This document shows, piece by piece, positions 18,753 through 57,516 of a stretch of 64,000 nucleotides of DNA (position 1 is the first letter of the stretch; each line of letters starts with the position of its first letter). Location: the NCBI GenBank assembly GCA_013314775.1, contig JABUFB010000008.1:310001-374000 (forward strand). Reading direction: 5' to 3'. The notes beneath the pieces were generated by a model. It did no database searches. It had not been told where the DNA came from and saw only the letters and a program-made list of their open reading frames with translations. The translations under genes and the position numbers were made by a program. Source of the stretch: Armatimonadota bacterium (lineage in GTDB: Bacteria; Armatimonadota; Zipacnadia; Zipacnadales; JABUFB01).

Positions 18753-21035
18753 ATGGACCTCACCTGCACCCACAGAGTCGTAGACAGCGCACTTACCGGG
18801 CGCGTCAAGCAGTACGCCTACCAATCCCTGCGCGTGGATCTCGTGGGGATCGCCAACATTGAGCGCTTCGCCAAGGCTCCAGCGCGCATGTCGCCCCAGG
18901 GCATCCTGCCAACAGCGAAATCCGTGGTGGTCATGGCCATCCACCACCCCGACGCTGCTATCGAAATGGGTGGGATCAAGCATCCCCAGGAGATCGGTCC
19001 ATACCGGGTTCAGTACTGGATGAACTCGCGGCTGGACGAGATCTCGTACCGTCTCGGGCTTATGCTGGAACGCGAAGGCTACGCGGCTGTGCCCATTGTC
19101 AGCTCCAATATCTGGCGCTACAAGGGCTACAAGGACCTCACAGCCCATTTCGCGCCGGACGTGAGTCACATTCACGCTGCAGTGGCTGCCGGGCTTGCCG
19201 AGCACGGGTACAACGGGCTCGCGATTACACCCGAGTTCGGCGCGAGGCAGCGGTATGTGACGGTCATTACCGACGCGGTGTTGGAGCCCACGCCGCTGCT
19301 GGAGCCCGGCAGCGTCTGCGACATGTGCAATCTGTGCGTGAAGCACTGTCTTTCAGGGGCTCTGTCCAAGGAAGTCGATGGTCTCAATGTGGTGGAGATC
19401 GAGGATAAGCGCTACACCTTCGCCCGGAAGAACCTGTGGCGCTGCGCTTGGGGTGAACATTTCGATCTGGACCTCGACCTGCCGATCCCCGACACGGTTG
19501 ATGAAGACGTGATCCTGGAGCAGGTGGCGATCCACGGATTCCGGGGCGGCGAGATGGGGAGCTGTCTGCGCTACTGCGTTCCCGCGAACAAGCGCTACTT
19601 CCAGCCCGAATACACAAATGCCCCGCGGCGCAGACGGGACCTTGAGCCGGCGCCGGTGGTGGACCGGAGCTTCCAGGATCAGCTTGCGGCGGTGGCCCAG
19701 GGGCAAGGTGTGGAGTTCGTTGTGGTCAGTTCCGCTCAAGACCTGGCCGCCGAGGGCATCGATCTGAAAAAGGAACTGCCGGACGCCGTGAGCGCCATGA
19801 CACTCGGGGTCTTCTATCGCAAACCCGAGGGCCGCGACACGGTGGCTTCAGCCCGTCAGTACCTCGTAGAGCTCGCGGCCTATGACGTCGCTCGAATGCT
19901 GGAGCGCCGGGGTTACAGTGCCATGTCCTGCACGGAGTTCCCGGAGAAAGCGTTCCAGGCAACATTGCAGGGGATCCCTGGGAATTGGCAGGTTGCCACT
20001 GCAACCGTGATCAGCAGCGCGCCGCTGTGCCCCACCTCCCGCGAACTCAAGGCGCCGGAAGCGCCGCGAGCGTGTCCGGACGAGGCGGCGAGGGCTTTGA
20101 AGCGATTCCTCACCGAGCTGGGCGCTGATCTTGTGGGAGTAGCCCCCGCTTCGCGTATTGCGGAGATGCAGCCCGCGTTGGCCCAACTGTTCGACGGAAA
20201 AGAGCATCTCGTTGCAAGAGACAAGTCCCAGCGGATGCATCCCTATGAGCCGGAAATCCACGTCGAAACGATCAGGACGAAAACGCCGGATGACCACCTG
20301 CCCGGCGCGAAATCGGTAATCGTGGTGGGCTTGCGTCTGCCCAGAGCCAGCGTTGAACGCACCGCGCTGGAGCCTGCCGAAGCGGTGGGCCCGTACGCAT
20401 TTGCCCAATACGAGAGCATCAACCTTCTGGCCCTCTGGGGCTTCCGGGCGATGCGCTGGCTGGAGGACCGGGGACACCGCGCCGCGCTCACTTTCGACCT
20501 CACCGGGACCGGTTCTGTGGTCGGTAACCCTCGCGGCGAGCAGCCCGATGCCTTCTGCAATCGCTTCGCGGCGGTGGCTGCAGGGCTTGGGCGCATCGGC
20601 AAAGGGGGGTTCGTGCTGACACCGGAGTTCGGGCCGAATGTACGCTTCGCAGCGATCGTGACGGACGCCGAGATTGCCCCGGATGGTTTTCCTGCGGATG
20701 CGGCGGTTCTTTCCACTTGCGAGAATTGCTCGCGCTGCGTGGACGCCTGCCGCACCTGCGCTTTCACCGACCAGGTGCGCCTCGATCTTGGCGGGATCAC
20801 CGAAACCTTTCACCTGTTGGATCGGGATCGCTGCGATTGGGCGAAGCGGTACTCGCTGGTGGGTGAGGAGGGCGTGAACTTCGTGGGTTGGGAGATGAAC
20901 GTGGAAATTCCGGACAAAATCGACGCAGACACCCTGGATGCAGCCCTGCGGCAGCAGCCGGCAATTCCGAAGCATCGCCCGTGCAACTTCGAGGCGTGCG
21001 TACTGGCATGCCCGCTGGCCAGGGAGCAGGGATAG
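18753..21035 (+). CDS. Tandem-duplicated QueG/RdhA-like iron-sulfur protein
   Basis: A 760-aa cytoplasmic protein made of two halves with the epoxyqueuosine-reductase (QueG)/reductive-dehalogenase layout. Half 1 (about 1-310) has CDMCNLCVKHC (C189, C192, C195, C199), then RCAW and SCLRYC. Half 2 (about 440-760) has CENCSRCVDAC (C656, C659, C662, C666), then RCDW and PCNFEACVLACP. Each half could therefore carry two [4Fe-4S] clusters. Both share LITPEFG/VLTPEFG followed by a V(T/V)D segment. QueG and RdhA use cobalamin; whether either half binds it is unproven. There is no Tat signal. AGGAGG lies upstream of the ATG. Its reaction is unknown, and a duplicated single chain is unusual. Confidence 0.72.
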   Translation: MDLTCTHRVVDSALTGRVKQYAYQSLRVDLVGIANIERFAKAPARMSPQGILPTAKSVVVMAIHHPDAAIEMGGIKHPQEIGPYRVQYWMNSRLDEISYRLGLMLEREGYAAVPIVSSNIWRYKGYKDLTAHFAPDVSHIHAAVAAGLAEHGYNGLAITPEFGARQRYVTVITDAVLEPTPLLEPGSVCDMCNLCVKHCLSGALSKEVDGLNVVEIEDKRYTFARKNLWRCAWGEHFDLDLDLPIPDTVDEDVILEQVAIHGFRGGEMGSCLRYCVPANKRYFQPEYTNAPRRRRDLEPAPVVDRSFQDQLAAVAQGQGVEFVVVSSAQDLAAEGIDLKKELPDAVSAMTLGVFYRKPEGRDTVASARQYLVELAAYDVARMLERRGYSAMSCTEFPEKAFQATLQGIPGNWQVATATVISSAPLCPTSRELKAPEAPRACPDEAARALKRFLTELGADLVGVAPASRIAEMQPALAQLFDGKEHLVARDKSQRMHPYEPEIHVETIRTKTPDDHLPGAKSVIVVGLRLPRASVERTALEPAEAVGPYAFAQYESINLLALWGFRAMRWLEDRGHRAALTFDLTGTGSVVGNPRGEQPDAFCNRFAAVAAGLGRIGKGGFVLTPEFGPNVRFAAIVTDAEIAPDGFPADAAVLSTCENCSRCVDACRTCAFTDQVRLDLGGITETFHLLDRDRCDWAKRYSLVGEEGVNFVGWEMNVEIPDKIDADTLDAALRQQPAIPKHRPCNFEACVLACPLAREQG

Positions 21036-22065: not shown

Positions 22066-22286
22066 GGGGTGACCTCCCGGGATGAATTGGGGGCATTGTA
22101 GCACGGGCGCTGATGAAGGCAGGAGGAAAAGGCGGCGCGGGCGAAGGGGCCTCCGCAAAGAGTGTGCCACTGCTTTCCGCACCTGCAACCGCCTGCGGTT
22201 GCCGCAGAGCAGTTGTGCCCTGGGAGCACACCACTGTGAAGCGGCGTCTGCCGATGACGTCAGCCCTGCAACGGAGGATGCGAGTC

Positions 22287-25200
22287 ATGTCTCTGCGCGT
22301 TGTGCGCCCTGGCCTGCTTGCGGCCCTGATCATCCCCGCGGCTGTGGCGGCAATGGACAACCCACACTTCGGCCTTGACTGCCCCCGGGAGTCCGCGATC
22401 ATCGCGGGAAGGCCCGAGTACTGCAAGCCGCCGATAACCGTTGAATGCATGGCACGGCTCACGGACAAGCAATCTTACAACATCCTCGTGGCCAATGAGA
22501 CCAAGGCCTCGGCCACCCACTGGGAGCTTTTCACCACGCCCCGAGACGGCATTTTCACCGCCTATCTGCCTGGTCGCAGGCCGGACCATGTTCGCGCGAA
22601 CACTGACATCGTGGATGGTAAATGGCACCGGATCGGGATGATCATGGAAGAGCGCCGGGTCCGGTTGTACGTGGACGGCGAGATGAAAGCAGACCAGACG
22701 GTTACGGCCCTGGAGAAGGAGGGCATCCCGGGCGGACTTGCGGTGGGTGCGTTAGTGACCGGCGAGTTGTCCTGCTGGGGCCGCATCGGCTCACTCAGTA
22801 TCCTCAGAGGGGCCCAGGTGCCGCTGAAGGGCCCAGTGGAGCCCTCCGGCGTCAATATGCCTGCCGGTCCGGATCATGTCGGCGTGTGGGTCTTCGCTAC
22901 CCCTGTTGACGGCAAGTTCAAAGACCAGTCACCTTTGGGGAACGATGCTGCTCTCAAACGTGACACAGCCTGGGTCTACACCGGCCAGCAGCGCATCCCG
23001 GGCGGTATGCCCACCAATCTGCAGCCCCTCCCTGCGCCTGAAGACGCTGCGCCGCTGAGGCACGCGCTGGAGGGCATCACAGCCCGGCTGAGCCTGCAGT
23101 CTGTGGACTGCCCGGCGATTCGGGACAATGTCCTGCGCGCGTGGAACCGGGAACTTTCCGGATACGGGCAGAGAGACTATGCGGATTCTCGACCATCCGC
23201 CGCCGATCCACAGGCCGTGCGCGAGCAAGTTTTCGACCCGCACGCGCTGATCTGGGAGGACGATGGCGGGCCCGTGGGGACGGCTCTGCGCCGCACATCG
23301 GCGCTCATCACCCGTCTGCGCGACTTAGGCGCGGGGGAGCAACTCGAACCTGTGGCGGCGGACCTGGCAGTACTCAAGGCAGCCTGGAATGGAGAGCCCA
23401 GCCACGAGGATGTGGTCACTGTGGGTCCATACTATCTGGCTGCCTGTGCCCTGCGGCGCAAGGCCTCTCTGCTCAACCCGTTGCTGGATTTCGACGACAT
23501 CCTCTGCGTTGCCCGGGGGACCTTCGCGGGCTCAGTACGCTCGAACCCGGCAAATGCGGATTACCAGGGCGGACATTTCTCCACACAGTATTTCGGCTTC
23601 AATGCCCTGCCCGGCGGCGGATTGTTCATCATCAGGAACTTTCGGGATAAGCCGGTCGCGGTCAACATCCTGGAAAACTCCGTGGTCCAGAACGGACGCC
23701 TCAGGGGCCGCAAGCTCGACCGCGGGGCCTTCGCGACACCCGACCTGTCATACGACGGGAAAACCGTGGTTTTCGCCTGGACCGAGAACTCCGAGCATCG
23801 CTGGACGTACTCGCGCAAGACCGCCTGGCACCTGTTTCGGGTGAACATCGATGGGAGCGAACTGACGCAACTCACCGACGGGCCGTATAGCGATTTCGAC
23901 CCGTGCTGGTTACCCAATGGACGCATCGCCTTTATCTCCGAGCGGCGCGGCGGGCACATCCGGTGTTTCGCGGCGTATCTCAAGGTCCGCAACTACACGC
24001 TGTTTTCCATGAAGGCCGACGGAACCAACATTGTGCCGCTGAGCTACTACGAGACCGCCGAATGGAACCCCTCGGTGGACAACGACGGGCGCCTGGTGTT
24101 CACGCGCTGGGACTACACTGACCGCGAGAACTGCCTGGGCACCCGCATCTGGATCAGCAACCCGGATGGCACCGACCCGCGCGCACTCCACGGCAATTAC
24201 CCTCACCCGTACCACACTTTCCCGGATCACAAGCCCTGGGGCGTCTACCCCAATGGGCGCGAGTTCGACAGCAGAATGGGCGCGCCGCTGGTGGAGATGG
24301 GCATTCGCGCGGTGCCTGGCTCGCACAAGTACATCTGCACCGCCGCACCCCACCACGGCGAAGTATATGGGTCCCTTGCGATGCTGGATCTGCGGGTCGA
24401 AGACGACGGACACATGTCCCAGGTGCGCCGTGTCACGCCAGACGAGCATTTTCCCGAGACTGAGGTTCCTGGTCGACGGCATTACAAATACGGTACCCCC
24501 TGGCCGCTCAGTGAGGATTTCTACCTGTGCAATGTGTGGGAAGACCTGGCGCTGGTGGATCGTTTCGGGAATACCGAACTTCTCTGCGAGTTAGCAGCCC
24601 TCCCATGCCCGCAGGATGAGCGCCTGCGAATAGTCGAGCCAATTCCCGTGAAGCCACGACCGCTGCCGCCTGTCATGCCCCCGCGCACCCGACAGGGCGA
24701 ATCCGCGGCTGAGGATGCCCCGAAGGCTACGGTCGCGGTGATGAATGTCTACGATTCCGACCTGCCCTTCCCGCCGGGCACGAAGATCAAGTGGCTGCGG
24801 GTCACGCAGAACATCCTCAAAGAGAACCACGCCATGGGCGAACCGATGATCGGCTACGAGCGCGAGAACACGCCGCGCATCCCGCTGGGGATTGTGCCGG
24901 TCGAGGAGGACGGGAGCGCGTACTTCGAAGCGCCGGTGGCGAAGGAACTCATCTTCCAGGCGCTGGACGAGAACTACATGGCGGTGCAGTCCATGCGTTC
25001 GGTGGCCTTCGTGCATCCCGGCGAGCAACTGAGTTGCGTGGGTTGCCATGAGCCAAAAGAGACCGCCCCGAGAGTGGCGAACAAACCCATTGCGCTCTTG
25101 AGAGAGCCTTCGCAACTGCAGCCGGAGATCGATCCCATCGAGCCCATCAGCTATTACCGGCAGATCAAGCCGATCTTCGAAAACACCTGCCTGAAATGCC

Positions 25201-26429
25201 ACCAGGCCCAGGGCAAGGGCCCGCAGGATATGAGCTACGAGGCCCTGCGGGAGGATTACACATTCTGGTTCTCCGGTGCCATGTACACCGACATGGCCAA
25301 TGCGTACAGCGGCGTGCATGGCGGGTCGCGCACGATCCCCGGCCGCTTCGGCGCGAGAGCCTCCAAGATCGGGCAGGCATTGCTGGGCGAAGAGCACCGG
25401 AAGGTCGTCTCTGAACGAGACCGGCGCACGGTGAACCTGTGGCTGGACTCCAATTCCCTCCGCCTGGGCGCATACACACGGGAAGCCGCGCAACTGCGGG
25501 GCGAACTGGTCTGGCCGGGGTTGGACGTGGATCCACTAAACATTCTGGGCGTCGAGGGCCGCGGCAGGCCGCTGAAACGGAACTTTTGGCATGAGAATAT
25601 GTACGGCCCACACCCGCTTCTGCTTTCAGAACACGCGCATGATCGCGTGGTGATCCTCGACGCTGCCGGGTTGGTTCGCTGGGAATACAGTATTCCCCAC
25701 CCGCAGGACGTGTGGATGCTTCCAGACGGCAATGTTCTCGTCGCGTGGACCCACGGCGTGCGCGAGGTGGACAGGGAAGGACGCACCGTCTGGGAGTACA
25801 AGACCGATCCCCCCAATGAGATTCCCAACTGTCAGCCCCTGCCCGACGGTAGGGTGCTCATCGGCATCGTGGGCGAATGTCGCCTGATCGAGATAGACCG
25901 CACCGGCAAGATTACCCACGAAGTGAAGCTGTCCACGTCGGTCAGGGAACCGCACGCGCAGTTCCGCTTCTGCCGTAAGACCCCGCAGGGGACGTATCTC
26001 GTGCCCTTCACCGCCGAGGGTGCGGTTCGCGAATTGGACCGCGACGGCAAGGTCATCCGCGAGTTCCCCCGAAGGCCCATGCCGGTCTCCGCGGTGCGGC
26101 TGGATGACGGGCACACCCTCATCACCGCCGGTGGCGCGGTCACTGAATATGACGCGAACGGCGCGGTCTGTTGGGAGCTGTCGCCCAATGACCTCGCGGA
26201 CATCAACGTTGGCACTCTTGCGGGTATGCAGCGACTGGAAAACGGAAACACCATCGTGTGCAACTGGAATACCCGGGATGAAGGCGACCTGATCGGCGCC
26301 CACATCCTCGAAGTGACCCCAGACCAGCGCATCGTCTGGCAACTCACGGGAGACACCGTGGGACAGGTGGCCCAGTGCCAGGTTCTCACGCCGGAGCTTG
26401 GCTACCGGAATGAGCGGGTGTGGCGGTAG
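22287..26429 (+). CDS. Secreted LamG / HzsA-like propeller / diheme / ASST-like propeller fusion
   Basis: A 1380-aa exported protein. The signal peptide is residues 1-23 (LLAALIIPAAVAA). Residues 40-200 form a LamG/concanavalin-type beta-sandwich (GKWHRIGMIMEERRVRLYVD). From about 400 there is a TolB/PD40-type propeller (GSELTQLTDGPYSDFDPCWL) with a region like the hydrazine-synthase alpha middle domain. Two c-type heme motifs follow: CVGCH at C917 and CLKCH at C968. The last 270 residues are a second propeller with repeated Asp-Gly-Trp motifs, like arylsulfotransferase/PQQ-type proteins (VILDAAGLVRWEYSIPHPQD). Heme and exported location imply a periplasmic or surface redox role; the substrate is unknown. 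ATG 22287 has ACGGAGG nine bases upstream. Confidence 0.75.
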   Translation: MSLRVVRPGLLAALIIPAAVAAMDNPHFGLDCPRESAIIAGRPEYCKPPITVECMARLTDKQSYNILVANETKASATHWELFTTPRDGIFTAYLPGRRPDHVRANTDIVDGKWHRIGMIMEERRVRLYVDGEMKADQTVTALEKEGIPGGLAVGALVTGELSCWGRIGSLSILRGAQVPLKGPVEPSGVNMPAGPDHVGVWVFATPVDGKFKDQSPLGNDAALKRDTAWVYTGQQRIPGGMPTNLQPLPAPEDAAPLRHALEGITARLSLQSVDCPAIRDNVLRAWNRELSGYGQRDYADSRPSAADPQAVREQVFDPHALIWEDDGGPVGTALRRTSALITRLRDLGAGEQLEPVAADLAVLKAAWNGEPSHEDVVTVGPYYLAACALRRKASLLNPLLDFDDILCVARGTFAGSVRSNPANADYQGGHFSTQYFGFNALPGGGLFIIRNFRDKPVAVNILENSVVQNGRLRGRKLDRGAFATPDLSYDGKTVVFAWTENSEHRWTYSRKTAWHLFRVNIDGSELTQLTDGPYSDFDPCWLPNGRIAFISERRGGHIRCFAAYLKVRNYTLFSMKADGTNIVPLSYYETAEWNPSVDNDGRLVFTRWDYTDRENCLGTRIWISNPDGTDPRALHGNYPHPYHTFPDHKPWGVYPNGREFDSRMGAPLVEMGIRAVPGSHKYICTAAPHHGEVYGSLAMLDLRVEDDGHMSQVRRVTPDEHFPETEVPGRRHYKYGTPWPLSEDFYLCNVWEDLALVDRFGNTELLCELAALPCPQDERLRIVEPIPVKPRPLPPVMPPRTRQGESAAEDAPKATVAVMNVYDSDLPFPPGTKIKWLRVTQNILKENHAMGEPMIGYERENTPRIPLGIVPVEEDGSAYFEAPVAKELIFQALDENYMAVQSMRSVAFVHPGEQLSCVGCHEPKETAPRVANKPIALLREPSQLQPEIDPIEPISYYRQIKPIFENTCLKCHQAQGKGPQDMSYEALREDYTFWFSGAMYTDMANAYSGVHGGSRTIPGRFGARASKIGQALLGEEHRKVVSERDRRTVNLWLDSNSLRLGAYTREAAQLRGELVWPGLDVDPLNILGVEGRGRPLKRNFWHENMYGPHPLLLSEHAHDRVVILDAAGLVRWEYSIPHPQDVWMLPDGNVLVAWTHGVREVDREGRTVWEYKTDPPNEIPNCQPLPDGRVLIGIVGECRLIEIDRTGKITHEVKLSTSVREPHAQFRFCRKTPQGTYLVPFTAEGAVRELDRDGKVIREFPRRPMPVSAVRLDDGHTLITAGGAVTEYDANGAVCWELSPNDLADINVGTLAGMQRLENGNTIVCNWNTRDEGDLIGAHILEVTPDQRIVWQLTGDTVGQVAQCQVLTPELGYRNERVWR

Positions 26430-49646: not shown

Positions 49647-50411
49647 ATGGAGTTTCCGAACTTCGTTCTCAGGGGCAGGAAGGCGCTGGTCACCGGGGCC
49701 AGTCGGGGAATCGGGCATCACGCTGCGCTCTCGCTGGCACACGCTGGGTGCGAGTTGGTGGTTACGGGGCGCGACAGGTCTGCTTTGGAGCACGTTGCGG
49801 CTGAGATCGCGGACCTTGGCGCACATGCGCACATTCTGACAGCGGACCTGGCGGATACCCGCGCAGCCATCGAGATGGCCCGGGCGGCTGACAGGCTCCT
49901 GGGCGGCGTTGATATCCTGGTCAACAACGCCGGCATCTCATTCCCGGAGAGTGCGCTGCAGACCAGCCTGGAGCACTGGGAGACGACGATGGCGGTGAAC
50001 CTGACGGCCCCGATGTTTGTGAGCCGCGAGATCGCACCCGGCATGATCGCTCGCGGCGGAGGGAAGATCATCATGATCTGCTCCAACGCCGGAATTGTCG
50101 GTCTTGCCGACCACGCAGCCTACTGCGCTTCCAAAGGCGGCATGGTCCAGCTGACCAAGGTGTTAGCTATTGAGTGGGCGCGGCACAATGTGAACGTGAA
50201 CGCGATCGCGCCCACAGTCATCTTGACACCCATGGGCGAGCAGGTCTGGGGGACGCCGGAGAAGCGCGACCCGATGCTCGCGAAGATACCCGCCGGGCGC
50301 TTCGGGAAGCCTGTGGATGTCTCGGGCGCAATTCTCTTCCTGGCCTCTTCTGCATCCGACCTGATGCACGGGGAGACGATCCTGGTGGATGGGGGCTACG
50401 CGGCACAGTAA
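49647..50411 (+). CDS. Short-chain dehydrogenase/reductase (SDR)
   Basis: A 254-aa classical SDR. Cofactor motif TGASRGIG (about 16-23), NNAG at about 93-96, catalytic Ser146 (CSNAG), Tyr159 and Lys163 (YCASK), then the C-terminal MHGETILVDGGYAAQ. It is a soluble NAD(P)-dependent oxidoreductase, commonly acting on sugar or sugar-acid substrates in this context. AAGGAGG precedes ATG 49647. The heparinase-like gene starts 35 bases downstream, so the two are probably co-transcribed; a keto-deoxy-sugar reductase role after lyase action is a reasonable guess. Confidence 0.92.
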   Translation: MEFPNFVLRGRKALVTGASRGIGHHAALSLAHAGCELVVTGRDRSALEHVAAEIADLGAHAHILTADLADTRAAIEMARAADRLLGGVDILVNNAGISFPESALQTSLEHWETTMAVNLTAPMFVSREIAPGMIARGGGKIIMICSNAGIVGLADHAAYCASKGGMVQLTKVLAIEWARHNVNVNAIAPTVILTPMGEQVWGTPEKRDPMLAKIPAGRFGKPVDVSGAILFLASSASDLMHGETILVDGGYAAQ

Positions 50412-50445
50412 TCCGGGCGATAACAAGACTCGAGAGAGTGACAAG

Positions 50446-53400
50446 ATGACGGTCAACCACCACGCGACGCTCGTTCTGCTTGCATGCGCGATCTTGATAG
50501 GGACGGTGAGTTCCCTGGCAGCGGATGATCTCGACCCCAAAGACTGGTCCGCCTGGGAGCGGTTCCGCGCAACCGTGCAACATCCCTGCGCCGCCATCAA
50601 ACCCGCCGATCTCGAACGCGCCAGAAAGAACATTGAGAAGCACGGCTGGGCGCGGGAGTATGTGAGCCGCCTGCGGAGTTCGGCAGACTCAATCTGCGCA
50701 CAAGTGACCCCCGAATACCTGGAGCGCATGCTGGAGCACACCACCCCCGGCTGCACCGGTCCGTGTCCCGCCTGTCGCGCGAAGGGGCTACCGTGGCATC
50801 CCAACGGCCAATGGAGCTGGAACCCCAACCGCCCGGATCAGCTTGCGTGCAAGGTCTGCAAGACTGTCTTCCCCAATGACGAGTTCCCAGAGACGGTCAT
50901 CGTGCAGAGCACCTGGGATCCGGCCCAGAAGTTTAGCTTCGTGGGTGGCGACACTTTCCGCTGTTTCAGCTACACCCACGCCCGGCCCAGTATCTCGGGG
51001 ATCATCCGCGGGTACAAGGTCGGGCACGTCATCGCCCAACTTAGCAATCTCGGGCTGGCATACGCCCTCACGGGCGACACGGCGTACGCGAGGGCGACCA
51101 GAGCGATCCTGCTGCGCATTGCCGAGGTGCTACCAAAGTATCTCGTCTTCGCAGGGTACGGCTACGGGGAGTACGCGGACTGCGACCCGCACGTGGCGGC
51201 TGAGCGCATCAATAACCTGCCGGTGGATGAGCTTGTATACCCGCCGAATCAGCCGGACCGCAAGATTCACACCGGCTATTGGTCCGCCAGCAGGCTGGGC
51301 AGCAGCGGCATGGACGGCGGCTATGTAATCCGCATGGCTCAAGCCTATGATCTGACTTGCGAAGCGCGAGATGAAAACGGGCCTGTCTATTCAGACCAAG
51401 ACCGGGTGCGCATTGAACGTGACGTGCTGCTGGAATCCGCCTATCTGGGCGCCTGTGACGTCGCGATCAATAACAAGTCAGTGGGCAACCGCGCCGGCGT
51501 CGCGACCGTGGGCATGGTTGTGGGACACCCGGGGATGGTGCGGTTCGGGCTGGACGGCTTCGTGCGCACCATCGAAGAGTGGTTCCTGCCCGACGGCGGC
51601 ACATCGGAATCGCCGGCATATGCCATGATGACCATGAGCGGCATCCGTGATTTCGCCCTGATGTTCCGCAACTACACCGACCCTCAAGGTTTTACGGGGC
51701 CCGACGGCACGCGGCTTGAGGGCTTCGACGCCTGCCGCGATACGCGTTACGGCGACTGCTGGCAGAGCCTTATCTGGACGCTCCAGGGCGATCTGACACA
51801 CCCTCCCAGCGCGGATTCGTACCGGACCACAACCATCGGAGCGGATTTCGCGGAACTCATCGCCCTTGGGTATCCCACCCCCCAACACAAGGCGCTCCTG
51901 CGGGAGTACTCGGACGGTCAGGAGGCACCAAAGGCCGAAGCACGAGCCATCTTCTACCGTGACCCGGAGGCCACGACTGAGACGCTGCCCCCATTCGCGC
52001 TCCCGGACATCGTCTTCCCCTTCCTGGCCCAGGGATACCTGCGGACCGGCGAGTATGGACGCGACAGCCTGGCTCTGCTCAATGCCAGTGACTACGGCGG
52101 GCATCATCACCTCGACAGCCTCGACCTGTATTACTGGAAGGACGGGCGCGAACTGCTGTCCGACCTCGGCTATCTGTGGGATCATCCGGACTCCTACCAG
52201 ACTCGGCGCACTCTGTCACACAACACGGTGCTGATAGACTCCGCCGACCAGCAGACCAGGGACCGCCGGGGGAGCTTTCACCTCTTCGCTCAACTCCCGT
52301 TCATGAAGGCGATGGCAGCTTCATCCAATGCGTACCCCACCGCCCACGTGTACCGGCGAGATGTGATCCAGATCGACCACGGCCAAGGCCGTTCTTACCT
52401 GCTGGACATCTTCCGGGTGCACGGGGGCAAGCGGAACCAGTACGTGTTCCATGGTCCGAACAACTCGTGGTCGGTGGAAGGCCTCAAGCCTGCGCCTGCT
52501 GCGGAGCAGGAAGCGCCGGTTCGATTCGCGGTTCGATTGCATCTGGGGCAGCTTGCGGAGATCTGCATCAGGAACGTTGAGATCAGGCAGGTGCTTTCGG
52601 ATGGCAGGGAGGGGCCCAATCTGGCTCCGAACGGGGATCTCGCGCAGGGGCAGGTGGGCAGATGCCCGCCAGGATTCGGGCTGTATTCGGGCGAGGGCGC
52701 GTATGCATGTGAGCTCGCGGACGGCGAGAATGGCAGGTACCTGCGCTTCGAGGCTACGAAGCCCCACGAGAACGGGAAAGTCAACGTGGCCCTCCTCATT
52801 GGCGATTCAAACGGCTATGTCGGCCCCAATGCGCTGCTGGGTGCGCGCGGCGGCACTTACCGCGTGCGCTTCCACATCCGCGGCAATGCGCCGCAGGTGA
52901 GCGTCGGGCCGGTGATGTGGCCAGATGACCCGAACGACCCCGGCGACCGAACATACGCCGGATCGGACCGTATTGCGGCGACGGACGACTGGACGAAGTA
53001 CGCGGGAGAATTCACACTCCGGAGTGCCGCGCTGCAGTTGGATAACCGGCGCTACGGCAGGCCTGAAGCGCCGTGGAGCGCGTCCTGGGTGCTTCCGGGC
53101 GACTACGGCTTCAGCGCGCACATGCCCGCGGCACCGGGCGAACAGGTGATCCTCGCGGACGGCTGGGGCCAGCGCGATCACCGGAACACCGACCGCGGCG
53201 CAACCCTCCCATACGTAGTTCGCGAGGCCACCGGTGCACAACTGAACGCCTTCGTGAGTGTGTTCGAAGGTGCGCCCATCGGCGAGGCGATCGTACGCGG
53301 CGTCGAGGTTCTGCCCCTGACCGCGGACGCGCCCGAAGATGCGGTGGCCGTGCGGGTACTCACGGAACTGGGCGAGGATATCGTGGTCTCAATGCCCAAC

Positions 53401-53808
53401 CCGCAACGGCTGAGTCTCGCGACCCGATTGGGGACCCTCGAGACGGACGGGACCCTCACGGCGGTTCTTGGCACTGGCGATTCAGCAAGCGCAGCGGCAT
53501 TGGTCGGAGGCAGCAACATGTGCGTTGGGCAGGCCGCTATCACGTGCAATGTGCGGGAGCAATCCGGGAAGATCCTCTCCGTGGGAAGCGGGCGAGGCGA
53601 CTCCTGGTTCGAGCTTGACAGCGCATCGCCGGACCTGTGCGTGGGCTGTGTGCTGCTGGTGACAGACGGTGCCTTCGAGCGAGCCTATCCCATCCGGGCA
53701 GTGAACGACACCCGCGCATACACCAAGCAGGGGAACACGGGCTTCGAGGCCAGAGGCGGCACGAGCTGGAGAGTTCTCTCGCAGGCATCCTGGCAGCGGG
53801 TTCCATGA
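50446..53808 (+). CDS. Secreted heparinase II/III-like lyase with N-terminal Cys4 motif
   Basis: A 1120-aa exported protein; residues 1-26 are a signal peptide ending in SSLAA. At about 107 is a Cys4 set, CPAC then ACKVC 24 residues on, a probable zinc knuckle also hinted at in the protein at 9750. Residues 130-520 are the helical toroid (GMVRFGLDGFVRTIEEW, GTSESPAYAMMTMSG). GGHHHLDSLDLYYWKDG at about 548 and LSHNTVLID at about 590 are typical of the heparinase II/III C-terminal domain. The remaining 500 residues are further beta modules. It probably cleaves uronic-acid polysaccharides. The start ATG is supported by GAGAGAG and the signal peptide. Confidence 0.8.
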   Translation: MTVNHHATLVLLACAILIGTVSSLAADDLDPKDWSAWERFRATVQHPCAAIKPADLERARKNIEKHGWAREYVSRLRSSADSICAQVTPEYLERMLEHTTPGCTGPCPACRAKGLPWHPNGQWSWNPNRPDQLACKVCKTVFPNDEFPETVIVQSTWDPAQKFSFVGGDTFRCFSYTHARPSISGIIRGYKVGHVIAQLSNLGLAYALTGDTAYARATRAILLRIAEVLPKYLVFAGYGYGEYADCDPHVAAERINNLPVDELVYPPNQPDRKIHTGYWSASRLGSSGMDGGYVIRMAQAYDLTCEARDENGPVYSDQDRVRIERDVLLESAYLGACDVAINNKSVGNRAGVATVGMVVGHPGMVRFGLDGFVRTIEEWFLPDGGTSESPAYAMMTMSGIRDFALMFRNYTDPQGFTGPDGTRLEGFDACRDTRYGDCWQSLIWTLQGDLTHPPSADSYRTTTIGADFAELIALGYPTPQHKALLREYSDGQEAPKAEARAIFYRDPEATTETLPPFALPDIVFPFLAQGYLRTGEYGRDSLALLNASDYGGHHHLDSLDLYYWKDGRELLSDLGYLWDHPDSYQTRRTLSHNTVLIDSADQQTRDRRGSFHLFAQLPFMKAMAASSNAYPTAHVYRRDVIQIDHGQGRSYLLDIFRVHGGKRNQYVFHGPNNSWSVEGLKPAPAAEQEAPVRFAVRLHLGQLAEICIRNVEIRQVLSDGREGPNLAPNGDLAQGQVGRCPPGFGLYSGEGAYACELADGENGRYLRFEATKPHENGKVNVALLIGDSNGYVGPNALLGARGGTYRVRFHIRGNAPQVSVGPVMWPDDPNDPGDRTYAGSDRIAATDDWTKYAGEFTLRSAALQLDNRRYGRPEAPWSASWVLPGDYGFSAHMPAAPGEQVILADGWGQRDHRNTDRGATLPYVVREATGAQLNAFVSVFEGAPIGEAIVRGVEVLPLTADAPEDAVAVRVLTELGEDIVVSMPNPQRLSLATRLGTLETDGTLTAVLGTGDSASAAALVGGSNMCVGQAAITCNVREQSGKILSVGSGRGDSWFELDSASPDLCVGCVLLVTDGAFERAYPIRAVNDTRAYTKQGNTGFEARGGTSWRVLSQASWQRVP

Positions 53809-53823: not shown

Positions 53824-56800
53824 TCACTCGCTATAGGCGCGGATCTCGAACACTCGGGCCGACTCCGAACCGTTCGTCGCCGTCACGGTCAGGCGAAGGC
53901 GCGAGGTGGTCACTGGGTCGAAGCGGTGTACCCGCTTGCGCTGGAAGTTGCCTTTCTCACGGGCAAGCGTGCGCCATTCGCCCTCAACCTCGCAGGCAAG
54001 CTCGTAGTCCCGTACACACTGAGGCGGCAACGGGGCCGTGTGATAGGCCATGTTCATGTCCGTGTCGAAGGTGAGATGCACGGTGTTCACGGTCACAGGC
54101 TGATCCCAGCTGAGTTGCACCCATTGCGGGAGGGGCTCCTCGGCAGCCGACGCCCACATGTTGGCCTCGGCACCCACGATGCGCGCAATACCATTGATTA
54201 CATTCTCCGGCCGAAACGCAGTGCGCACAGCGATGAGCGGATCGGTGTAGAGCGCGTAGTATTGGCCCTTCACCACCGTCCAGTCGCCGGTCTGCCCCCC
54301 ACCGTATGCCCTGCAGCATCCGAGCGGAGCTGAGTCCATCAGGTACCAATGCACCCCCGGCGCGACTTCCAGCCAGACCCAGGCGAAGGGCTGCTCCAGG
54401 TCGCGGTCGAAACGGAACTCCACCCAGTTGTCGCCGGGCTTGAGCTCGGCCTGTGCCACCGCGATGTCATCCTTCGATCCGAACTCTCCCGCAGCCGCCG
54501 ATTCCCGCAGGTGCATAGTGACCGCAACGGGTTTATCCGCAGTATTCCGCAGGAGCGCATGCACTGCGTTCAGCCGCTTCTCGGGGCCAACAGGGAACAA
54601 CATGGCGCGCGATGTCTCCATCGGGTGCAGGAGGCCCGTGTGCACATCGCTTCTGCCGAAGTATTCGAACTCCGCGGTGCTCGAGGCGGTGACCGTTGCG
54701 GCCCGGGCAAGGTCGGCGGGGTCTCGATTCGGCACATTGGGGATGTACTGGTCGTTCTTCAGCAGCAATTGCTGGAACTCGGCCATGTGGTCGGTGTAGA
54801 TCCGCCGGGGCGTGATACCGTGTTTCACGGCGTATGCCGCCGCGGTCCCCGCCGCCTGTCCCGTGGTGGCCAGCGTTCCTTGCACGCGAACGGAACCCAG
54901 GGCAATGTGAGTCACGCTCATGCAGCGCCCTGCCATAAGCAAGTTGTCGATGTTTTTCGAGTACAGGCTGCGGTAAGGGATGGTGTAGATGGGCACATAG
55001 GCGTTGGTGTGGAAAGGACCTTCGGGACCCGAGTAGATGCCCTCCGGGTGATGCACATCCAGGGGCCAGCCGCCGTATGAGATGGCATCCTCGAACTGCC
55101 GGGCGCTTTGGCAATCGTTCTGATTGAGGATGTAGTCGCCCACGATCCGCCTCGACTCCCGCTTTGCGTCGAGTATCGGGATGCTGACAAGTTCGAAGTT
55201 GCGGGCCCGTTCCTTTCCGGCCCAGTGATTCTTGATGTGGTTCCAGTAGGCGAAAGACACGAGGATCAGGGCGTCGCGTGCCTGTTCGGCGTCCCAGGTG
55301 TCGTCGATGTCGCCGGGGTGTTCCAGCCACCATTCCCCGCTTGTGACGCCGCGGATGTTCCGCCCGAACTGGTCATCGGGCGGCAGCTTCGGCACCCACG
55401 CGGGGGGCACGAACTCCGTAGGTCTTCCTGTGTCCACCGAACGGAAGGACAGGGAATGGCCGTCCATGAGGCAGCCGCTCATAGTGATTTTGTCCGCCTT
55501 CTCCGGCGCGAGACTCTCACCGAACTCGGCTCGAGCTTCCCGGCCCTGACGGAACTCAGCCCCGGCGTAGAAACCCACCCAGCCGTCCCCCGTGCAGTCC
55601 ACGAACATCCGCCCGGTGTACCGGCTGACAGTGTTTTTCAGCGTGTCCACTGCGAGAACCGCGGCAATGTGCTGGGCGTCGGCCATCTCCACTGCAAACA
55701 CGTGCTGGTTCACAAAGACCGACAAATTCGGCTCGCTTTCGGCCAGCACACGGAAGGGTTCGCTCATCTTCGGGTAGCCGAAACGCGCTTTGATGCGCCC
55801 CGCCTCCTCGATGATCCCCGCTTCGCGCGCGTTGGGGTGGGCGCTTGCCGCGCCGTTGATCGGCACGCCCATTTCGTCGCTGGAGTTGCCGCCGAGTATC
55901 GGGCGATTCTGTATGAGCGCGGTCCTCGCACCCATTCGCGCCGCCGCGAGAGCCGCCGGGCTCCCCGCAGAACCTGCGCCCACGACGATCACGTCGAAGT
56001 CACCGGCCGGCACGGGCTCCAGGGATATGCCGGTCAGACGGGCCCGCTCCTTTCGAACACCCTCCAAGTCTGTGGCCGGTGTGTATGTTTTGTCGGTGGT
56101 GAGGATCAGCGCGTCGCAGCGGCCGTAATATCCGGTGAGATCCTGCAGCGCGAGGGGCACTTTCCCTGCCGGGAGGTCAAAGTCTCCCCCATTCTCCCAC
56201 AGCCACTCGTCGCTGTGCGCGGCACCGAACACACCCTCAGTGCTCCTGTCCCCTATGCGTACCCGGAATTGCCCGGGGGAGTGGTCCTTGAGCCAGTTGC
56301 GGCTACGCACCCACAGTCTCCAGGAGCCGGCGGTGGGAATGTCCACCTCTACGGTTGCATCTGCCACAGGCTTCCCAACGCCCGCAGCTATCAAGTATGC
56401 CGAGCCCATGAGGTGCACGAACTGGGTGTCCAACGACCAGCCGCCGTAGTTGGTGAAGTCCTCGGCATCGATCCACAGGAAACCGTCCTGAACCATAGTG
56501 ATCTCCCTAGCGGGCTTGCGGAATGGCGGCTTCGGCTTGCCGATGAGCACCGGCTCCACAGTGATACCGGCCTGGGCAGCCAGGGCGTCGCGTCCGGCAG
56601 CATAGTGTTGGGCGACCTCTTCGGCAGAGAGCGCCCGGTCATAGACGCGGACGTCGTCAATACCGCCCTTGAACGCATATTGGCCGCGGTTCGAGCCGAT
56701 GTACGCGCCCGCAACGCCCGCATGCACCGTACCGGGACGGACTAGAGGGGAAGCCGGATCCAGCTGTCCGTCGATATACAGGCGCATTGCGTTGCCGTCG

Positions 56801-57270
56801 TAAGTACCAACGACGTGGTACCAGGTGCCCGGCACCCACTCCGTCTTCGCCGATTGCAGCGAGACAGGATTCCCGGCGAACCATAGCAGGAACCCCAGCG
56901 AACGGTCGGTGAAGCGCAGGGCATAAGCGCCGTCAAGACGGATCACGGCCGGAAAGCCCTGGAAATGTGAGGTCGCAGGGCGGACCCAGGCCTCGAGCGT
57001 CAGCGCTGGGTTCTGCTTCCCCGACGCCGCTCCGAGACAGATCACTGTTGACGCCTCGCCATCGAAATCCAGGCCTCGGCCGTCGACACCTTTGGTGACC
57101 GTGGCCAGGTTGACCTGCGCATCATTACCATTGCCGGATACGTCAGGCGCCGTGGTCCCCTGAATATGCTCGAAGTCCCAATGGGCAATGGGGCCGTCCT
57201 GGGCCAGCGCATGCAGCGCCCACAGCAGGAGAATCACAAGAACAGGAAAACGGAAAGGGCAAGTACGCAT
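53824..57270 (-). CDS. Secreted LamG / carbohydrate-binding / FAD oxidoreductase fusion
   Basis: A 1148-aa protein with a signal peptide at about 1-23. Residues 24-225 are a LamG domain (WYHVVGTYDGNAMRLYIDG). About 260-390 is a beta-sandwich (FLWIDAEDFTNYGGWS) like glycan-binding domains. About 420-850 is an FAD-dependent oxidoreductase: VIVVGAGSAGSPAALAAARM, NRPILGGNSSDEMG, MFVDCTGDGWVGFYAG and NIDNLLMAGRC. The C-terminal 270 residues look galactose-binding. An exported flavoprotein without a twin-arginine signal is odd, since FAD is usually inserted in the cytoplasm. ATG 57270 follows AGGA; GTG 57279 is possible. It faces the heparinase-like gene, 15 bases between stops. Confidence 0.8.
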   Translation of the reverse strand: MRTCPFRFPVLVILLLWALHALAQDGPIAHWDFEHIQGTTAPDVSGNGNDAQVNLATVTKGVDGRGLDFDGEASTVICLGAASGKQNPALTLEAWVRPATSHFQGFPAVIRLDGAYALRFTDRSLGFLLWFAGNPVSLQSAKTEWVPGTWYHVVGTYDGNAMRLYIDGQLDPASPLVRPGTVHAGVAGAYIGSNRGQYAFKGGIDDVRVYDRALSAEEVAQHYAAGRDALAAQAGITVEPVLIGKPKPPFRKPAREITMVQDGFLWIDAEDFTNYGGWSLDTQFVHLMGSAYLIAAGVGKPVADATVEVDIPTAGSWRLWVRSRNWLKDHSPGQFRVRIGDRSTEGVFGAAHSDEWLWENGGDFDLPAGKVPLALQDLTGYYGRCDALILTTDKTYTPATDLEGVRKERARLTGISLEPVPAGDFDVIVVGAGSAGSPAALAAARMGARTALIQNRPILGGNSSDEMGVPINGAASAHPNAREAGIIEEAGRIKARFGYPKMSEPFRVLAESEPNLSVFVNQHVFAVEMADAQHIAAVLAVDTLKNTVSRYTGRMFVDCTGDGWVGFYAGAEFRQGREARAEFGESLAPEKADKITMSGCLMDGHSLSFRSVDTGRPTEFVPPAWVPKLPPDDQFGRNIRGVTSGEWWLEHPGDIDDTWDAEQARDALILVSFAYWNHIKNHWAGKERARNFELVSIPILDAKRESRRIVGDYILNQNDCQSARQFEDAISYGGWPLDVHHPEGIYSGPEGPFHTNAYVPIYTIPYRSLYSKNIDNLLMAGRCMSVTHIALGSVRVQGTLATTGQAAGTAAAYAVKHGITPRRIYTDHMAEFQQLLLKNDQYIPNVPNRDPADLARAATVTASSTAEFEYFGRSDVHTGLLHPMETSRAMLFPVGPEKRLNAVHALLRNTADKPVAVTMHLRESAAAGEFGSKDDIAVAQAELKPGDNWVEFRFDRDLEQPFAWVWLEVAPGVHWYLMDSAPLGCCRAYGGGQTGDWTVVKGQYYALYTDPLIAVRTAFRPENVINGIARIVGAEANMWASAAEEPLPQWVQLSWDQPVTVNTVHLTFDTDMNMAYHTAPLPPQCVRDYELACEVEGEWRTLAREKGNFQRKRVHRFDPVTTSRLRLTVTATNGSESARVFEIRAYSE

Positions 57271-57516
57271 GAGATTCACTTCCTGGCAAGGATTTCTCGA
57301 CGTTTACAATACTCTTCGCGGGCAGGTGGCCACGGACCTCCGGAAACCTACCGGGCCCGTCCCGAGCACAACGACGTTGCCTGCACATTCATCGACCCGA
57401 AGAAGGAGATTGCGTTCCGATAGTGAATTGTAGCCGTCACGCCCGGACCCGGACCGCATCTACCCCGCTCTCGTGTCCCTGTCCCGCGCGAGTTCACCCG
57501 AACGGAGCATCACACC

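Follow-up and report, generated by a model that had tools for sequence, protein, structure and literature searches.

Gene and Domain Architecture

The window analyzed here, a stretch of 64,000 nucleotides from an Armatimonadota contig, contains at 22287..26429 a gene for a 1380-residue protein in which a diheme core like that of the hydrazine synthase alpha subunit, HzsA, lies between a LamG domain and a C-terminal propeller. All features described below lie on the forward strand unless noted. The open frame runs uninterrupted from 22113 to 26429, and residue numbers for the diheme protein count from this longer frame. The start chosen in the initial annotation, ATG 22287, is the better one: GGAGG lies upstream, and a Sec-type signal peptide follows (MSLRVVRPGLLAALIIPAAVAAMDN; predicted peptide, 22287..22355, read from the sequence as MSLRVVRPGLLAALIIPAAVAA), by which the protein is predicted to be exported. 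No frameshift divides the gene into two, and the same single-chain architecture occurs in many genomes, at 51–69% identity.

Profile searches of the individual segments returned Pfam matches for LamG, PD40, HZS_alpha, Cytochrom_C, Mala_s_1-like, and Arylsulfotrans, all of which exceed gathering scores. The N-terminal piece is predicted to form a jellyroll followed by a helical domain. The concanavalin-like jellyroll (22434..22802) corresponds to Laminin_G_3 (PF13385; residues 108–230, E = 5e-7), and its Foldseek matches are to laminin G and pentraxin domains. A conserved helical linker domain (23040..23477; pLDDT mostly 80–97) joins it to the core, and a profile built for this linker matches all window-type homologs and, more weakly, many paralogs. 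The HzsA-type N-terminal beta-propeller (23520..24767), delimited by profile alignment to 5c2v_A and by Foldseek, includes a PD40 match at residues 584–614 (E = 1e-6). It is followed by the HZS_alpha middle domain, PF18582 (24822..25052; residues 904–980), with an E value of 2.1e-19 and 70.3 bits against a gathering threshold of 26.6, and then by a Cytochrom_C match at residues 1019–1079 (E = 6e-4). The initial annotation had described a propeller like the HZS alpha middle domain; an HzsA-type propeller is indeed present, as the PD40 segment, but the middle domain itself is not a propeller.

The second propeller, six-bladed and located at 25590..26402, had been annotated as arylsulfotransferase-type, and this holds: both relevant families score above their thresholds. 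Mala_s_1-like PF22701 (residues 1197–1385, E = 5e-24, 85.5 bits versus 27.5) is the better match; Arylsulfotrans PF05935 covers only about 80 residues (1174–1250, E = 5e-7, 29.6 bits versus 24.2). The closest structural comparison is with PDB 3no2 (BACCAC_01654), for which we know of no function (profile E = 1e-42; Foldseek TM 0.86); unlike 3no2, the window propeller is fused to a diheme core. A set of His, Arg, Asn, and Asp residues is invariant in window-type C-terminal propellers and could constitute a binding or active site. Taken as a whole, the initial description of an exported multidomain redox protein with a lectin-type domain is supported.

Relationship to HzsA

The core of the window protein is homologous to HzsA. 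A single-sequence Phmmer search missed the relationship, which emerged with profiles: one built from 44 relatives aligns with 5c2v_A (E = 1.1e-28) over the propeller, middle domain, heme 1, and heme 2 domain. An AlphaFold model of residues 239–1438 computed with 44 sequences (mean pLDDT 85, pTM 0.87) likewise has 5c2v_A as its best PDB match in Foldseek (E = 7e-23). As in HzsA of Kuenenia stuttgartiensis (PDB 5c2v/5c2w), the PD40 propeller precedes the HZS_alpha middle domain, which precedes two CxxCH hemes, and the C-terminal cytochrome domain has a counterpart of the distal ligand His772. The proteins differ in that structural identity is about 15% and that the window protein adds the N-terminal LamG and helical domains and the C-terminal ASST-like propeller. 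Direct assignment as HzsA through the NCBIfam equivalog NF052339 was rejected, the score being 37 bits against a cut-off of 800.

Both heme motifs named in the initial annotation are present, and their Cys and His residues are conserved in the family. The motif of heme 1, CVGCH(E) (25035..25049, residues 975–979), aligns with CSGCH of heme alpha-I in 5c2v_A and is kept in 58 of 58 aligned family members. That of heme 2, CLKCH (25188..25202, residues 1026–1030), aligns with CAMCH of heme alpha-II and is kept in all but three members. The exceptions are near-identical proteins of rumen Victivallales (L022, L024, and L025), which read CRDCGH (CxxCGH) at this position but keep heme 1 and the distal His. 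Judged from this motif, heme 2 has probably been lost in these rumen anaerobes, which retain cytochrome-c assembly genes. A paralog in the window genome (L070:7106-11704; G000 C8:484-489 kb) carries HEAT repeats and a single CxxCH motif, that of heme 1.

The roles of the key residues of HzsA have been described (PMC12607021; PMC12758564). His1095 (25395..25397) aligns with His772 in both the profile and the family alignment, so that CLKCH and His1095 match by alignment the CAMCH and His772 of the bis-His heme alpha-II. The column holds His in 42 of 58 aligned relatives; many paralogs have a His one residue earlier, and when 33 diverse alphas were aligned separately, one His proved invariant in this region. 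In contrast, Tyr591, the proximal ligand of heme alpha-I, has no counterpart in the CVGCHEPKE segment or in any aligned relative. The zinc ligand Cys303 is also absent: GNC of HzsA aligns with GNY, and the family-conserved Tyr696 (24198..24200) takes its place. Cys303 is not universal even among anammox proteins (PMC12758564).

Beta-Gamma Partner Gene

The genome from which the window derives has a single gene (G000 C5:72518-74305) in which HzsB- and HzsC-like sequences are fused. The product consists of a seven-bladed YncE-type propeller joined to a CCP/MauG-like (MauG/peroxidase-like) diheme domain. It matches HzsB with E = 8e-53 and HzsC with E = 2e-42. Among NCBIfam models hydrazine_BC ranks first, with gamma and beta the other leading models, and all three score below threshold. 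On contig C5 the gene is flanked by two alpha paralogs, and the same 35 kb hold five genes for alphas together with the cytochrome-c assembly genes ResB and CcsA.

At heme gamma-I, both Asp168 and gamma-Cys165, the residue that supplies the third thioether, are absent, the CGRD segment falling in an alignment gap; across 20 beta-gamma homologs, no Cys is conserved in the stretch that separates the two gamma hemes. In these proteins (L065:12519-14306 and 19 homologs, A4) an additional Cys, absent from HzsC, is nearly invariant and precedes the first gamma heme motif by seven residues. A gene for a tandem Rid-domain protein (PF01042, imine deaminase family) lies near the HzsBC-like gene at five loci, that of the window genome included (L065:5253-6629, L100, L103, L104, and L105). 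Its recurrence hints at amine or imine chemistry. Literature searches on links between Rid and MauG, on cytochromes of Hydrogenedentota, and on the middle domain of HZS_alpha yielded nothing usable.

Alpha and beta-gamma genes occur together. Among 151 genomes of the phylum, PF18582 is found in 23 and beta-gamma in 24; 20 have both, three have alpha only, four beta-gamma only, and 124 neither (Fisher p = 4e-18, a value that overstates independence because the genomes share ancestry). The four genomes with beta-gamma only belong to one family and give much weaker matches. Beta-gamma accompanies window-type alpha in 18 of 20 genomes and was not detected in the other two, which are draft assemblies. 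Alpha adjoins beta-gamma at 13 of 20 beta-gamma loci, and the alphas concerned come from several distinct parts of the alpha tree, which suggests that the alpha partners of beta-gamma may be exchangeable. At three loci (L021, L032, and L033) the adjoining alpha is of the window type, and in a Verrucomicrobiaceae MAG (G166) the sole PF18582 gene is a window-type alpha adjoining the sole beta-gamma gene. The window gene itself does not lie beside beta-gamma in its own genome, nor do most of its orthologs.

Distribution and Accessory Modules

A survey across genomes shows that the full arrangement recurs in about 25 genomes of five phyla: Armatimonadota, Hydrogenedentota, Verrucomicrobiota, Lentisphaerota, and Planctomycetota. 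Two of the loci compared, L012 and L036 (MAG Armatimonadetes CG06), carry identical sequence. Window-type alphas form one supported clade on the alpha tree. The C-terminal propeller is absent in the basal members of this clade and in some others, and we therefore infer that it was added to a protein that already comprised LamG and the core. A Rosetta-stone test failed to reveal a free propeller: loci L027, L028, and L031, whose alphas are without it, adjoin a CtpB-like S41 protease.

The window genome has 11 alpha-like genes, and up to 26 copies occur per genome in the phylum. Accessory modules differ among other alphas: 13 of 33 carry an F5/8C domain (F5/8-type, galactose-binding-like), and some have HEAT repeats. 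In seven of 33 HzsA-like proteins (A6), a match to an FGE/sulfatase-modifying-factor-like domain lies within the one open frame. Differences in these domains support the view that the diheme core of the alphas stays constant while the ligand or targeting modules attached to it vary.

A 2025 study (PMC12758564) described distant homologs of alpha and beta-gamma from non-anammox organisms, without assigning them a function; it likewise judged that homologs of this kind are not hydrazine synthases. Like clades I–IV of that study (Planctomycetota, Desulfobacterota, and others), the present family has alpha co-located with a fused beta-gamma, has lost Tyr591, and does not conserve Cys303. It differs from them in that beta-gamma has no cytochrome c554 extension, in that most alpha-positive genomes of the window phylum have 2–26 alpha paralogs, and in that the core is joined to LamG and an ASST-like propeller. 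His772 is reported absent in clade I, whereas heme 2 in the window family has a His at or next to this position. Clade IV is the likeliest place for the window alpha family, since gene order there is also variable.

Functional Implications

We consider the chances about even that the window protein works as the alpha-type subunit of an exported, multiheme complex that resembles hydrazine synthase but does not make hydrazine. The co-occurrence of alpha and beta-gamma and the adjacency of window-type alpha to beta-gamma in three relatives argue for such a complex. Within it, the diheme domain of beta-gamma would carry out the redox step on a small molecule; alpha's heme 1, having lost the tyrosine ligand of HzsA, would sit in the facing site; and heme 2, with its His at or next to the distal-ligand position of HzsA, may relay electrons. 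LamG and the C-terminal propeller would bind a ligand or surface and so set the location or target of the complex. The weakest step in this proposal is the presumed physical association of the window alpha with a beta-gamma protein whose gene lies far from it in the same genome.

A substantial, if lesser, probability attaches to the idea that the window protein is a stand-alone exported diheme cytochrome, serving in electron transfer at the cell surface or as a sensor. The core would then only pass electrons, LamG and the second propeller would bind extracellular ligands, and beta-gamma would serve other alpha paralogs. The position of the window gene away from beta-gamma, the presence of 11 alpha-like genes beside one beta-gamma gene, and the variation of F5/8C, FGE-like, and HEAT domains between paralogs are all in keeping with this idea, and with about ten alpha genes for each beta-gamma gene, many alphas may work on their own. 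It accords poorly with the 18 of 20 co-occurrences and with the adjacency in three genomes, in one of which the window-type alpha is the sole alpha. It is exceedingly improbable, on the other hand, that the protein is a genuine hydrazine synthase alpha subunit betokening unrecognised anammox. Homology to HzsA might suggest it, as might the fact that the genome encodes a beta-gamma relative, but hydrazine synthesis is excluded by the loss of Tyr591, Cys303, gamma-Cys165, and gamma-Asp168; the score falls far below the NCBIfam cut-off; and a search for an HAO-like octaheme gene, run without a working positive control, gave no PF13447 match in eight genomes.

The initial annotation had placed the protein in a context of glycan degradation and proposed oxidative attack on polysaccharides, such as oxidation of uronic-acid glycans. 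The LamG domain, the carbohydrate-type modules on sister alphas, and a beta-helix protein and an AP_endonuc_2 TIM barrel encoded downstream lend this some appeal. Against it, no neighbour of the window gene, the pectate-lyase-like and sugar-isomerase-like genes included, recurs at 23 ortholog loci; a glycan-degradation operon was thus rejected, and the recurrent redox neighbour of the orthologs is the HzsBC-like diheme protein rather than any glycan gene. The window protein has no known glycan-oxidising domain. Nor does the genome contain a heme-copper oxidase gene, which is absent from most checked relatives as well; the organism is therefore probably anaerobic, which speaks against oxygen-dependent attack. 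The proposal is accordingly improbable. It is plausible from the domain content that LamG binds or tethers the protein to a ligand or glycan, since sister alphas often carry galactose-binding-like domains.

If the window protein is indeed the alpha-type subunit of a complex, then small-molecule heme chemistry other than hydrazine synthesis is the favoured activity. A broader and rather doubtful extension is that anaerobic Armatimonadota, Hydrogenedentota, Verrucomicrobiota, and their relatives share a combinatorial system, in which one catalytic beta-gamma subunit works with many interchangeable alphas and from which hydrazine synthase would have descended as one specialised form. The alphas would differ in the module that each contributes for targeting or ligand binding (LamG with the ASST-like propeller, F5/8C, FGE-like, or HEAT), and the MauG/peroxidase-like beta-gamma subunit would carry out the exported heme chemistry.

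The signature enzyme of anammox, hydrazine synthase, was long believed to have arisen de novo. In the present analysis the alpha family proves to be strongly expanded in one phylum, tied to a single beta-gamma gene, and equipped with exchangeable accessory domains. The Verrucomicrobiaceae MAG, with one window-type alpha adjoining one beta-gamma, offers a minimal, testable system for the role of the ancestral complex.

Other Genes in the Window

Upstream of the diheme gene, 18753-21035 encodes a 760-residue protein related to reductive dehalogenases and QueG (TIGR02486, 94 bits, below the cut-off), likely a cobalamin/4Fe-4S reductase. The reverse-strand gene at 53827-57303 encodes an FAD-dependent oxidoreductase that carries LamG and F5/8 type C domains in the same chain; the protein appears from its domains to be another redox enzyme with lectin-type modules. 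The 1147-residue protein encoded at 50365-53805, on the forward strand, has a heparinase II/III-like C-terminal domain.
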